Source of the DNA: Flavobacterium sp. NRK1
GTDB taxonomy: Bacteria > Bacteroidota > Bacteroidia > Flavobacteriales > Flavobacteriaceae
Direction of reading: 5' to 3'
Assembly: GCF_024054175.1 (NCBI RefSeq)
Contig: NZ_JAMXLA010000001.1
Coordinates: forward strand, 2,259,165 to 2,323,164
DNA: 64,000 nucleotides
Part shown: positions 3,386-43,481 of the stretch, in pieces
How the letters are laid out: every line of letters begins with the position of its first letter
Position numbering within the stretch: position 1 is the stretch's first letter
The notes under the pieces: generated by a model
What the model was told of the DNA's origin: nothing
What the model saw: only the letters and a program-made list of their open reading frames with translations
Database searches by the model: none
Program-made: the position numbers and the translations under genes

Positions 3386-3964
3386 ATGAGAGAAAAACGA
3401 TTTAACCTTGCCAGCAGGCTTCTTCACTGGGCTATTACATTTACCTTTTTATATATTCTGTTAACGGTATTCCTTAGAATGGGATGGATGAATAAAGGAA
3501 GTGTGGGAACTATAATTCATGATAATCTTGCCGAGCAGAATGTTGTTATTACTAATGATGCCGCTGCCACTATAGGTAAAAAGGTACGCAGGCCTATGTG
3601 GGAAACGCATATTATAGCCGGTTATATAATGGTTGGGTTGTTCGTGCTGCGCATTATATTAACCTGGGTACAGGGAATGGGTTTTGCTAATCCGTTAAAA
3701 AAAGGCATATCGCAATATGATAAATTTAAGTCGTGGGTATATATTGTTTTTTATCTGTTGCTTGGCGCAGCCCTCTTTACAGGTATGATGAAAGAACTTG
3801 GACCCCGAAGCATTGGGCATATTATGGAAGATATACACGTACAGTCACTCTATTTTGCCATTCCTTTTATTGTACTGCATACTTTTGGTGTACTTATTGC
3901 CGATGCTGGTAAAGAAAGAGGAATTATCTCTAAAATAATTAGTGGGGACAGACCTATAGAATAA
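3386..3964 (+). CDS. Cytochrome b/b6 (b561-like) membrane protein
   Basis: This 192-residue protein has four hydrophobic segments (about 12-32, 76-96, 116-134 and 152-172). Histidines H14, H75, H151 and H165 lie in or beside the helices and are candidates for binding two b-type haems. The N-terminal pattern RLLHW is typical of the cytochrome b561 / Ni-Fe hydrogenase cytochrome b superfamily (PF01292). Such proteins move electrons between membrane quinones and a partner. No dehydrogenase or hydrogenase subunit lies next to it, so the partner is unknown. It sits on the plus strand between two minus-strand DUF5686 genes. H45 and the 45-70 loop probably face one side of the membrane. The family call is fairly sure; the exact substrate is not. 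Confidence 0.82.
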   Translation: MREKRFNLASRLLHWAITFTFLYILLTVFLRMGWMNKGSVGTIIHDNLAEQNVVITNDAAATIGKKVRRPMWETHIIAGYIMVGLFVLRIILTWVQGMGFANPLKKGISQYDKFKSWVYIVFYLLLGAALFTGMMKELGPRSIGHIMEDIHVQSLYFAIPFIVLHTFGVLIADAGKERGIISKIISGDRPIE

Positions 3965-40498: not shown

Positions 40499-40945
40499 TT
40501 AATCGTCTATCCTCAAAAATTTGCCATTGGTATCAAATTCCAGTTCTGTACCGTTAGATAATTCAATATCATATCCGGCGTGTTTCTTGTCTATCTGTAC
40601 CACACCTTGTCCTTTATAATTTGATGATATATAGTTGTTTATTGCTGTAGGTATTACAGATACAGGTAATGCATTGTGGTTACCGTCTATTTCTTTCCAG
40701 TTGCCTTTTTCATCAAACTCTATTTCTGTGCCGTTAGAAAGTACTGTTTCATAATCTATATCAAACATTTCTTTATCCATTTTGGCAGCCGTTACGGTTT
40801 GATCTTTAAAATGCTGTTTGATAAAATTTTGTGCTGCTGCAGGCAGTTCTGCCGCAGATATTTTCTTATCCTGTGCACTTACCGATAATCCGGTAAATAA
40901 AGCTGTTATAGCTAAAAGTGTTGCAAAACGATTTTTAATTTTCAT
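40499..40945 (-). CDS. PepSY-like periplasmic protein
   Basis: This 148-residue protein has a signal peptide (about 1-25, ending SVSAQ) and two copies of a PepSY-like unit (PF11396 type, BLIP-like fold): ETVLSNGTEIEFDEKGNW and later DIELSNGTELEFDTNGKF. It is predicted to be periplasmic and to bind peptides or protein partners. It lies downstream of the histidine kinase gene (81 bases apart), and the 17-base direct repeat shared with the two-component promoter sits 45 bases upstream of its start. This makes it a likely target of that system. The biochemical role is unknown. Confidence 0.87.
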   Translation of the reverse strand: MKIKNRFATLLAITALFTGLSVSAQDKKISAAELPAAAQNFIKQHFKDQTVTAAKMDKEMFDIDYETVLSNGTEIEFDEKGNWKEIDGNHNALPVSVIPTAINNYISSNYKGQGVVQIDKKHAGYDIELSNGTELEFDTNGKFLRIDD

Positions 40946-40970: not shown

Positions 40971-41006
40971 CAAACCTATAACCTGAATCTGGAAACATTT
41001 AGGAAT
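40971..41006 (-). promoter_or_regulatory. Promoter and predicted response-regulator site for the 40499 PepSY-like gene
   Basis: On the minus strand a -7 box TAGGTTTG (40971-40978) is preceded by ATTCCTAAATGTTTCCA (40990-41006), present again exactly before the two-component operon (43027-43043). The half-sites ATTCC and TTTCC are 11 bases apart, as in OmpR-type tandem sites. Confidence 0.65.
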
Positions 41007-41026
41007 GTACGCTGGCTTTTAAGTTT

Positions 41027-42292
41027 TTAAGGAAAAATTATCTTAAAGATGTGATTTCCGTTATATGAATAAGTAACAGATAATTTATAATTAGTGACTA
41101 TAGAGTTAACAATGGAAAGTCCTAACCCTGTTGAATGCTCATTATTACCATCTCTGTAAAAACGTTTAAAAACATACTCAGGATTTAGTGCTTTATTATG
41201 TCCGGTATTTATTATGCTGATACTTTTATTTTCTATCTTAATAGACACTGTACCGCCTGAATGGTTATGAACTATAGCGTTTTTGAGTAAATTGCTAATT
41301 AGGGTTATGGCAAGCCCTCTGTTCATAGTAAAATTTAACCCTGCAGAGTTATCTATAGTTATGTTTATGTCTTTATAATTTGCAAGATCTGTATAATCTT
41401 CTGTAAGCTGTAGCAGTAACTCATTAAAATTAATACTTTCTTCTTCGGCATATTGCCTGTTTTCAATTTTAGAAAGCATAAGTAATGATTTGTTTAGCCT
41501 TACAAGTCTGTTTAGGGTATCGCTTATTTTTCCTAATTCCATCATTTGCTCTTCAGGCAGGCTATTGTTTTCTGCAAAAAGCTCAAGCTTATTAAGGCTT
41601 ACCGCTAAAGGTGTTTGCAGCTCGTGCGATGCGTTTTCAATAAATTGTTTCTGACTGCTGTAAATTTCTTCGTTTCGTTTAAGCATGCTTTCAAGTTCGT
41701 GGCCCAGAACTTTAAATTCTTCCACAGGTGAGGCAGGTGCTTTAAAAGCGGCTCCGGCTCCAATCCGGAAATGTTTTAGCCTGTCAAGCATCTGGTAAAA
41801 CGATTTCCATACTTTACGTAATATGATATGGTTTAATAAGGCTATGCTTATTACCAGCATTATATAAAGGGCTATAAGTGCAGTAAGAAGGTCTTCGAGT
41901 AATTCATCTTCCTCTACCATAGAGGCACGTATTGTAAGCAGATGCGGATTTCCATGAGCATCATTAAATACAGTCTTAAGAAGCCTTACAGGTTCATCGT
42001 CATCATCATATTCCATAAATTCAAAAGTGTTTATGAATTTATCTTTATAATCATAATCACCTTTGGGTAATGGTTTTATAGTAAATTGATTAATGCCGTA
42101 TTCCGGGGTATTCAGTATTTTTTCGTTGGCAAATGCTTCCCGGGTAATAAGAATCTTAGAGTTTTTAAGTCCGTCATCTATATTATCATATACTTCTTCC
42201 AGCATTACGGCGTAAAATAATCCTGCCCATACCGCTATAACCCCCAAAAGGGCAATAACAAGATAGCGGAGTGTATAGTTGCGCAGTTTCAT
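41027..42292 (-). CDS. Membrane sensor histidine kinase
   Basis: This 421-residue kinase has two membrane helices (about 10-30 and 134-157) around a periplasmic sensor of about 100 residues with an acidic patch (MEYDDDDEP). A HAMP-like linker leads to the phosphoacceptor H223 (ENASHELQTP) and the ATPase domain (N-box NLLKNAIVHN, G-box GLGLSIV). It is the partner of the OmpR-type regulator encoded just upstream; start and stop share one base (TAATG). The acidic sensor may respond to cations, as PhoQ does, but this is inference. Confidence 0.93.
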   Translation of the reverse strand: MKLRNYTLRYLVIALLGVIAVWAGLFYAVMLEEVYDNIDDGLKNSKILITREAFANEKILNTPEYGINQFTIKPLPKGDYDYKDKFINTFEFMEYDDDDEPVRLLKTVFNDAHGNPHLLTIRASMVEEDELLEDLLTALIALYIMLVISIALLNHIILRKVWKSFYQMLDRLKHFRIGAGAAFKAPASPVEEFKVLGHELESMLKRNEEIYSSQKQFIENASHELQTPLAVSLNKLELFAENNSLPEEQMMELGKISDTLNRLVRLNKSLLMLSKIENRQYAEEESINFNELLLQLTEDYTDLANYKDINITIDNSAGLNFTMNRGLAITLISNLLKNAIVHNHSGGTVSIKIENKSISIINTGHNKALNPEYVFKRFYRDGNNEHSTGLGLSIVNSIVTNYKLSVTYSYNGNHIFKIIFP

Positions 42293-42963
42293 TAACTCAT
42301 TTTGTATCCCATGCCATATACAGCCTGTATATCAACTTCGGCATTGGCCTCTTTTAATTTTTTACGTAGATTTTTTATCTGAGAATATACAAAGTCAAGA
42401 TTATCAGCCTGATCTATATAGTCGCCCCATACCGACTCTGCAAGAGCAGTTTTATTGATCAGTCGGTTTGGATTTATTATGAAATAATATAGAAGGTCAA
42501 ACTCTTTACGGTTTAATACCATATCTATACCGTTTACTACTACAGTTCGTTGTTCGGGAGAAAGTTTAAGATTGTTCCACGTAATGGTAGTGTCACCGTC
42601 ATGGTTTTTTCTTCGTATTGCCGATTTAATACGGGCATGCAGTTCGGCAAGGTGAAAAGGTTTGGCAAGATAATCATCAGCACCAAGATCGAGTCCGTTT
42701 ACTTTATCATCAACGGCATCTTTTGCAGAAATAATAATAACAGCTTCTTTTTTGCCAAGGCTTTTTAACTCGCGCAGTAAATCAAGTCCGCTGCCGTTGG
42801 GCAGCATAATATCTATAAGTACGCAATCATAATCATAAGACCCTATTTTGTCTATACCGGAAATATAATCATTAGCCGTTTCTACAATATACTTTTCTTT
42901 TTCGAGAGATTCACGGATAACCTCTCTAAGGCCTTGCTCATCTTCTATGATCAGGATTTTCAT
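42292..42963 (-). CDS. OmpR/PhoB-family response regulator
   Basis: This 223-residue protein has a receiver domain (about 1-115) with an acidic pocket (IEDEQG), phosphoacceptor D51 (LIDIMLPNG) and lysine K101 (AKPF). A C-terminal winged-helix DNA-binding domain covers about 125-222. I start at ATG 42963, the normal first residue of the receiver (MKILIIEDEQ), rather than 42990. It shares one base with the kinase gene. OmpR-type proteins bind tandem direct repeats about 11 bases apart, which is what is found upstream of this gene and of the 40499 PepSY-like gene. Confidence 0.95.
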   Translation of the reverse strand: MKILIIEDEQGLREVIRESLEKEKYIVETANDYISGIDKIGSYDYDCVLIDIMLPNGSGLDLLRELKSLGKKEAVIIISAKDAVDDKVNGLDLGADDYLAKPFHLAELHARIKSAIRRKNHDGDTTITWNNLKLSPEQRTVVVNGIDMVLNRKEFDLLYYFIINPNRLINKTALAESVWGDYIDQADNLDFVYSQIKNLRKKLKEANAEVDIQAVYGMGYKMS

Positions 42964-42987
42964 AGTTTTGCTTTGCTTTTTGTATAT

Positions 42988-43043
42988 CAAATATACCGAT
43001 TAAGCCAGCAAGGTAATATTGAATTTTGGAAACATTTAGGAAT
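42988..43043 (-). promoter_or_regulatory. Promoter and predicted response-regulator site of the two-component operon
   Basis: A -7 box TATATTTG (42988-42995, minus strand) lies about 25 bases before the ATG. The 17-base repeat ATTCCTAAATGTTTCCA sits at 43027-43043, identical to 40990-41006. Its distance from the -7 box is 20 bases greater than in the other copy, about two helical turns, so both sites face the same side of the DNA. Confidence 0.65.
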
Positions 43044-43046
43044 AAT

Positions 43047-43481
43047 CTAATAATTGCCAACTACCAAAGTGCCCTGCGCGTCAAATTTTAGTTTAACGGC
43101 ATTGCCGTTGCTTAATGCCAGCCTACATTCAGAATTGCATCTTTCAATTCGGGTAACAGCTTCATTGGCGTGGTTAGCTTTTATATATTCTACAATTGGC
43201 TTGTCAAGAAATTTATAAGGAACGGGCTTACCCTTTCCATCTACAAGGGTCCAGATACCTTTTTCAGAAAACTGAATAAGTGTTTTATCATTAAGCACTA
43301 TTTCATAAATAGTACTAATATCATCTGTTGCGCGTACCGCATGGTTAAACGGACTTCTGAAGTAAGAAGCAAGAAATGAACGGGCTTTAGATGGAATTTC
43401 AGATCTGTAAACGGTTTCCTGTTGTGCCTGCATAGTTAGTGTGCAGGCAAATAATGCAATGGCAGATAGTAATGTTTTCAT
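43047..43481 (-). CDS. PepSY-like periplasmic protein (second copy)
   Basis: This 144-residue protein has a signal peptide (about 1-19, ending TMQAQ) and PepSY-like units (YEIVLNDKTLIQFSEKGIW; CRLALSNGNAVKLKFDAQG), the same family as the 40499 protein but diverged. It lies 56 bases upstream of the response-regulator operator and reads in the same direction, so read-through into the two-component genes is possible. Its own upstream region has only a weak resemblance to the 17-base site (around 43498-43512, opposite orientation). Two Cys (C117 and C121 in IERCNSECRL) may form a disulphide. Confidence 0.84.
   Translation of the reverse strand: MKTLLSAIALFACTLTMQAQQETVYRSEIPSKARSFLASYFRSPFNHAVRATDDISTIYEIVLNDKTLIQFSEKGIWTLVDGKGKPVPYKFLDKPIVEYIKANHANEAVTRIERCNSECRLALSNGNAVKLKFDAQGTLVVGNY

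Follow-up and report, generated by a model that had tools for sequence, protein, structure and literature searches.

The window analysed here, a stretch of 64 000 nucleotides from Flavobacterium sp. NRK1 (contig NZ_JAMXLA010000001.1, positions 2 259 165 to 2 323 164 of the forward strand), carries a two-component system, i.e. an OmpR/PhoB-type response regulator (RR) and a sensor histidine kinase (HK), with a gene for a small PepSY-like protein on either side. The same 17-base sequence stands in front of the RR gene and in front of one of the PepSY-like genes. Our main conclusion, to which we give a probability of about 0.82, is that this system regulates itself and drives secreted PepSY-like proteins through an operator built as an 11-bp repeat, with probable feedback on the kinase. 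The site, its spacer, its strand, its targets and its tie to one clade of RRs can all be read from the sequences compared below.

An exact repeat in two short gaps

The 17-mer TGGAAACATTTAGGAAT is present in two exact copies, at 40990-41006 and 43027-43043, in the same orientation and in gaps of 81 and 83 bases. The first-pass annotation had reported these copies upstream of a PepSY-like gene and of the RR gene, with minus-strand half-sites ATTCC and TTTCC whose starts are 11 bases apart; positions, orientation and half-sites are as it claimed, and all four genes of the locus are on the minus strand. It had overlooked the second PepSY-like gene (43047-43481) and a -7-like sequence located 11 bases from the repeat in the RR promoter. 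The elements of the locus are as follows.

40499..40945, minus strand: PepSY_like1, 148 aa; PF11396, predicted β-lactamase inhibitor protein (BLIP)-like fold, N-terminal signal peptide by inspection
40971..40978, minus strand: -7 box TAGGTTTG (TAnnTTTG, consensus from PMC9723704) of the PepSY_like1 promoter, 11 bases beyond the 17-mer
40990..41006, minus strand: operator copy 1, reading ATTCCTAAATGTTTCCA, upstream of PepSY_like1; with the next bases it forms the 11-bp tandem repeat TTCCTAAATGT-TTCCAGATTCA
41027..42292, minus strand: sensor histidine kinase, 421 aa; HisKA and HATPase_c, above the cut-off of NF052314 ('PorY family')
42292..42963, minus strand: OmpR/PhoB-type response regulator, 223 aa; Response_reg and Trans_reg_C, ATG start picked by the conserved N-terminus
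42988..42995, minus strand: candidate second -7 box TATATTTG, 31 bases from copy 2
43008..43015, minus strand: -7-like sequence TACCTTGC, 11 bases from copy 2, matching the F. psychrophilum motif SM5, TAnnTTGY (PMC9723704)
43027..43043, minus strand: operator copy 2, reading ATTCCTAAATGTTTCCA, upstream of the RR-HK operon
43047..43481, minus strand: PepSY_like2, 144 aa; PF11396, 3′ end 3 bases before copy 2

An exact 17-mer common to both short gaps is unusual, and the repeat is real: when both gaps were shuffled 5000 times with their dinucleotides preserved, one of the resulting pairs had a common run of at least 17 bases (an 18), one had a run of 13 and the other 4998 had 12 at most, which agrees with the low chance that had been supposed. 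A genome-wide scan allowing up to two mismatches returned two matches to the 17-mer, both of them the window copies, a count that is not above chance since the backwards-pattern control gave four. No RNA element was found at the Rfam gathering threshold between 39500 and 45500, and a sigma-70 scan, based on a model that does not cover Bacteroidota promoters, returned 15 promoter-like sites, where shuffles gave 13.0.

Definition of the operator by comparison

The comparison made use of a genus sample of 150 genomes, own genome included. A search with the kinase gave a match at E ≤ 1e-30 in 62 of them and at E ≤ 5e-86 in 14 plus the own genome; these 14 were taken as orthologues because of a gap in the scores (at least 39% identity, versus 28-37%). 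Stretches around the 14 orthologues were put together with 80 further loci from named organisms (the best 80 of at least 585), so that the working set comprised 95 loci with a kinase, window included, 94 of which have an adjoining RR gene. Five Flavobacterium loci have kinases 61-70% identical to that of the window. A same-strand PepSY-like match was detected in 54 of the 95 loci by blastp with both window proteins, and divergent ones were found later by profile. Sites were sought on the coding strand, within 250 bases upstream of the RR gene and from 150 before to 60 after the PepSY-like start.

The motif TTCC-N7-TTCC was found upstream of the RR gene in 45 of 94 loci and at the PepSY-like gene in 46 of 54, versus 3 and 1, respectively, on the reverse strand. 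Spacer 7 alone stands out, other spacers (3-6 and 8-15) giving 0-5 occurrences. Alignment of the sites reveals an 11-bp direct repeat, TTCCYAAWTST followed by TTCCHRAWT, with TTCCnRAWT in both halves. A matrix was trained on the 46 PepSY sites; counts made with it at PepSY-like genes are thus not independent, while those at RR, HAEPLYID and DUF2490 genes are. Applied to the RR windows, this matrix gave at least 10 bits in 49 of 94, in 3 of 94 on the reverse strand and in none of 1880 shuffles. Several Chryseobacterium loci (L066, L069, L071, L073, L074, L085, L087, L089 and L091) have no RR site; in these, the site belongs to a PepSY-like gene located upstream of the RR gene. Across Bacteroidota the site is conserved, as are its spacer, its strand and its targets, which supports the earlier proposal of a putative OmpR-type operator common to the RR's own promoter and the PepSY-like gene. 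A loose pattern lacking the -7 box was rejected as a definition of the regulon: present in 82 of the 150 genus genomes, it is too common.

Distance to the -7 box

At PepSY-like genes the distance from operator to promoter is nearly fixed, with TTTG starting exactly 15 bases after the 17-mer in 37 of 47 sites. The first-pass annotation had contrasted gaps of 11 and 31 bases in the two window promoters, about two helical turns apart. Both distances are as it stated. Of the 12 closest Flavobacterium-type RR sites (window, L035-L040 and L049-L053), 9 retain a TAnnTTTG box 31 bases away; the 33 other RR sites all lack it, so that the pair of distances may hold in the window's lineage and is not a general feature. 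Among RR sites, the more widespread pattern is a box with TTG or TTTG some 11 bases away. The window RR promoter has two candidate -7 boxes, TACCTTGC at 11 bases and TATATTTG at 31, either of which may be the one in use. The operator reading does not depend on the 31-base spacing.

According to PMC9723704, the sigma-A box in F. psychrophilum is TAnnTTTG; motif SM5, TAnnTTGY, is shorter by one base and is found in promoters tied to the type IX secretion system (T9SS) and gliding, among others. At a distance of 11 bases, TAnnTTGY was seen in 4 of 45 RR sites and in none of 47 PepSY sites, too few for a second sigma factor to be proposed. A near-palindrome, GTATATTTGATATAC (minus strand, 42982-42996), surrounds the more distant -7-like box; it is identical in L035, L036, L037 and L049 and may be a second control element of the RR promoter.

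The operator follows one clade of response regulators

The RR combines a receiver (PF00072, 3.9e-29) with a Trans_reg_C domain (PF00486, 1.4e-16), as is characteristic of the OmpR/PhoB family, and its presumed half-sites are arranged head to tail about 11 bp apart, as expected for that family. The kinase scores 495.8 bits against NF052314, whose cut-off is 350. In a phylum sample of 296 Bacteroidota genomes, 71 kinases from 60 genomes exceeded this cut-off; all 71, and 19 of the weaker ones, were read as loci.

When sites of at least 8 bits, at the RR gene or a target, were sorted in 183 loci by identity of the RR to that of the window, none was found in the 45 loci below 50% identity, 3 in the 34 between 50 and 55%, and 94 in the 104 above (the window and L285, which are one locus, are counted twice within these 104). 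The RR's own upstream region alone holds a site in 61 of the 104. A tree of 180 RRs, built by a quick method without bootstrap, places the site in 94 of the 104 members of one clade (SH-aLRT, an approximate likelihood-ratio support, 97) versus 2 of the 76 RRs outside (8-11 bits); because the rows are related, the corresponding Fisher value of 1.2e-36 is a guide only.

On the kinase side, four acidic residues flanking the predicted periplasmic part (E33, D36, D40 and E127) are invariant in 26 sequences, which, speculatively, would suit a cation signal. The structure model of the kinase has a pTM (predicted template-modelling score) of 0.50, and the 50 Protein Data Bank (PDB) matches listed for it are histidine kinases or other multi-domain sensors.

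Predicted extent of the regulon

With the -7 box included and up to one mismatch allowed, the site was found in 14 of the 15 genus genomes with a kinase orthologue (own genome included) versus 21 of the 135 without (Fisher 1.7e-9), the backwards control giving 8 overall. The kinase-bearing genomes hold 30 such sites, of which 29 were examined (all but G144:C27): 27 lie upstream of PepSY-like, RR, HAEPLYID or DUF2490 genes, and the remaining two upstream of a small-protein gene that is itself followed by one for CusA/CzcA-family efflux. None of the 18 sites examined among the 23 in kinase-free genomes precedes a PepSY-like, RR, HAEPLYID or DUF2490 gene. In the phylum sample a stricter pattern (RAWT and TTTG required) was sought with up to one mismatch. 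Of the 11 genomes that belong to the RR clade, own genome included, 8 contain it, whereas outside the clade it is present in 2 of 285; a wrong-spacing control, with the -7 box one base further away, matched in 1 of 296.

The own genome has four convincing sites, before PepSY_like1, the RR gene, a HAEPLYID gene (site G000:C1:1434423; NF041634, 347 bits) and a DUF2490 gene (G000:C1:2876409, one mismatch). A further site, G000:C1:541121, is just within a coding sequence and was taken as due to chance. None of the four is upstream of a T9SS gene or of a CusA/CzcA-type operon. The idea of a shared regulon is supported as to the RR and PepSY-like genes, and was too narrow in stopping at these two. 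Both G033 and G118 retain the HAEPLYID site, and G033 also retains that of DUF2490; the phylum sample has sites before DUF2490 relatives in two other genomes. Of the genus genomes with HAEPLYID genes, all 5 that have the kinase (own included) and none of the 15 that lack it bear the site at these genes; five more HAEPLYID genes, which adjoin the kinase in loci from named organisms, all have a site of at least 18 bits.

When 106 loci were scanned at 12 bits, a set that takes in the training sites and stretches chosen for having a site, 148 sites were found in 92 of them: 81 before PepSY-like genes, 41 before RR genes, 9 before HAEPLYID, 2 before DUF2490 and 15 before other genes or none. Seven of these 15 (L092, L093, L094, L095, L105, L109 and L122) are upstream of similar-looking proteins of 286-302 aa, and the two that were scanned, from L093 and L095, match the family SdiA-regulated (PF06977).

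Some single loci may be added. In L224 and L229 (genomes G118 and G033), the operator stands before an operon of a protein of about 125 aa and a CusA/CzcA-family heavy-metal resistance-nodulation-division (RND) pump. L124, from Salegentibacter, has a site of 19.8 bits at 3895, before a 411-aa Porin_O_P (PF07396) protein. L375 (G424), outside the RR clade, has a one-mismatch site starting 71 nt before an open reading frame of 481 aa that looks, by eye, like a TolC-type outer-membrane efflux protein.

The PepSY-like proteins

The two small proteins score 102.2 and 61.7 bits against PF11396, whose gathering threshold is 28.3 (E 1.9e-29 for PepSY_like1), and they are the only matches to this family in the genome. 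The model of PepSY_like1 (mean predicted local distance difference test, pLDDT, 90.2) comes closest, among PDB entries, to BT0923 (3db7; 1.2 Å rmsd, 43% identity) and then to BVU2987 (3due; 1.6 Å, 40%); PF11396 membership is thus backed by score for both proteins and by a predicted BLIP-like fold for PepSY_like1. The two structures were solved for proteins called putative or left without an assigned function. PMC2954215 relates the PF11396 family to the β-lactamase inhibitor fold and proposes inhibition as its role, and the accessible part of that paper mentions no regulator of BT0923 or BVU2987. In iron-depleted B. thetaiotaomicron, PMC10434189 reports that BT0922 rises 3.7-fold and BT0923 5.0-fold (P from 8E-05 to 0.074 for the locus), and that the CusA/CzcA operon BT2038-BT2040 rises 2.5-3.3-fold. 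By analogy, this joint rise would fit a metal or envelope signal for the PepSY-like circuit. 

Proposed mechanism and alternatives

Members of the OmpR/PhoB family bind DNA as head-to-tail dimers, and class II activation and autoregulation are part of their biology. A phosphorylated dimer of the window RR would bind head to tail on TTCCYAAWTST-TTCCHRAWT, the 17-mer being the operator core. Class II activation is the most likely mode at PepSY-like promoters, because the site lies at one fixed distance upstream of the -7 box, at about the place of a -33 element; at its own promoter the RR may act from an equal or a more distant place. The RR would drive the RR-HK operon, the secreted PepSY-like protein, and the HAEPLYID-family and DUF2490 proteins, which are probably outer-membrane proteins. 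The PepSY-like protein would in turn act in the periplasm on the sensor domain of the kinase, a negative feedback that is plausible by analogy with that of DbfQ on DbfS. Our inferences are that the window RR binds the operator and activates from it, that the feedback takes place, and that the signal has to do with metals or the envelope.

Several observations weigh against this self-regulating circuit. The exact repeat is missing from 49 of the 94 RR windows, and RR sites are looser in their distance to the promoter: of 45, 16 have TTTG at offset 14-16 and 9 have it at 35. PepSY_like2 has no operator (no upstream TTCC-N7-TTCC) of its own, and DUF2490 relatives in five named loci have no site directly upstream. 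The site is also held, at up to one mismatch, by the 21 kinase-free genus genomes mentioned above. Finally, 10 of the 104 clade members show no 8-bit site in the scanned regions; among these ten, the stretches of L291 and L293 do not include the PepSY-like upstream region, and an exact site in L072, at 4630, falls outside the scanned regions.

The alternative of greatest weight, a genuine possibility if not a probable one, accepts the operator and casts the PepSY-like proteins as output effectors, i.e. inhibitors or metal buffers, in place of feedback elements. Several PepSY-like genes may be found in one locus and one, in L225, is unlinked to the kinase, as would suit effectors; so would the inhibition proposed from the BLIP-like fold (PMC2954215) and the rise of BT0922-BT0923 together with CusA/CzcA efflux genes in iron depletion (PMC10434189). 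However, the PepSY-like gene often adjoins the kinase, in 54 of 95 loci, and DbfQ-DbfS provides a precedent for feedback (PMC12714742).

Another reading keeps operator and regulator but reverses the sign, the RR repressing both promoters, or repressing one and activating the other. The direction of control is not readable from a sequence, and the -7 elements do differ between the promoters (TAGGTTTG vs TACCTTGC or TATATTTG), but the PepSY-like sites lie at a fixed distance upstream of the -7 box and leave it uncovered, which is the usual place of an activator, and we regard repression as improbable. Operators of OmpR-family regulators resemble one another, so that a different RR of this family, or an unlinked factor, might bind the repeat and control a gene set that includes the window RR. 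Sites in kinase-free genomes could be taken in this sense, but those examined there precede none of the four target families, and the sites track the RR clade (94 of 104 vs 2 of 76), being absent beside all 45 RRs below 50% identity; this makes a foreign regulator very unlikely. Lastly, in spite of the one shuffle pair in 5000 that matched it, a chance repeat, a dispersed repeat or an RNA leader element has a negligible probability, given the two genomic matches, the empty Rfam scan and the fixed spacer conserved in related loci.

Comparison with known systems

Neither autoregulation of two-component systems nor the presence of PepSY modules next to them is new. The open-access literature searched yielded no Bacteroidota module based on PF11396 for which operator and regulon had been defined, and nothing on HAEPLYID. 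For a two-component system of Bacteroidota, the circuit proposed here would provide a specific operator with its promoter geometry and a list of targets open to testing one gene at a time, among them the uncharacterised families HAEPLYID and DUF2490, as well as a suggested role for PF11396 proteins, several of which have solved structures and no assigned function in the cited sources.

The closest precedent is DbfQRS of Vibrio cholerae (PMC12714742), in which, as in the window, the gene of a small secreted PepSY protein lies beside those of an RR and an HK; in the window PF11396 proteins are encoded on both sides of the RR-HK pair. DbfQ has the Pfam domain PepSY, whereas the window proteins have PepSY_like, a different Pfam family, and unlike DbfQRS the window has a PepSY-like gene with an operator-bearing promoter of its own. 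Such modules are named in Proteobacteria, Terrabacteria and Fusobacteria in PMC12714742, the main text of which nowhere contains 'Bacteroid', so that the DbfQ idea would here be extended to a phylum not named there. Autoregulation, which would be expected of a DbfQRS-like module, may also occur in the window, where the operator stands in front of the RR gene.

In Pseudomonas aeruginosa, two PepSY proteins (PA2658-PA2659) are encoded beside the BqsRS system (PMC12714742). These neighbours are PepSY, not PF11396, and the phylum differs from that of the window. The operator of BqsRS is a tandem TTAAG-N6-TTAAG, with a half-site that differs from the window's.

HaeSR of Porphyromonas gingivalis (PMC3764172), compared by description only, is a Bacteroidota RR-HK pair like that of the window; near its genes, PG0719-PG0720, is that of the lipoprotein PG0717, with four DUF2874 (= PF11396) domains. 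HaeR binds its own promoter, and chromatin immunoprecipitation sequencing detected binding before 57 genes; the main text of PMC3764172 gives no operator consensus.

The window kinase shares the NF052314 name 'PorY family' with PorY of the P. gingivalis PorXY system. There porY is an orphan gene (PMC11320123), whereas the window kinase gene overlaps that of an OmpR-type RR. PorX carries a PglZ domain and lacks a DNA-binding domain of the classical type (PMC5005315, PMC11320123), though it has also been reported to bind promoters (PMC8265659). An OmpR-type partner for PorY-named kinases is at odds with the PorY-PorX interaction and phosphotransfer described in P. gingivalis (PMC5005315, PMC8265659), and accords with the report that T9SS function is lost when porX is deleted but not when porY is (PMC11320123). 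All 71 kinases above the NF052314 cut-off in the phylum sample (loci L284-L354, the window being L285) have an RR gene within 400 nt, and the sole kinase without one, L373, is below the cut-off. On this gene neighbourhood, with P. gingivalis PorY compared by description only, we base the suggestion of an ancestral OmpR-type partner. A broader picture could then be drawn, tentative and rather doubtful as it is: an operator-defined system of many Bacteroidota lineages, whose outputs would be its own operon and secreted BLIP-fold PF11396 proteins acting periplasmically on the kinase like DbfQ, with HAEPLYID, DUF2490, SdiA-regulated-like and CusA/CzcA efflux proteins as additions, and a PorY-named family ancestrally concerned with metal or envelope signals and partnered by an OmpR-type RR, not by PorX. 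The automatic name 'PorY family' may mislead, because an RR gene adjoins every one of these 71 kinases.

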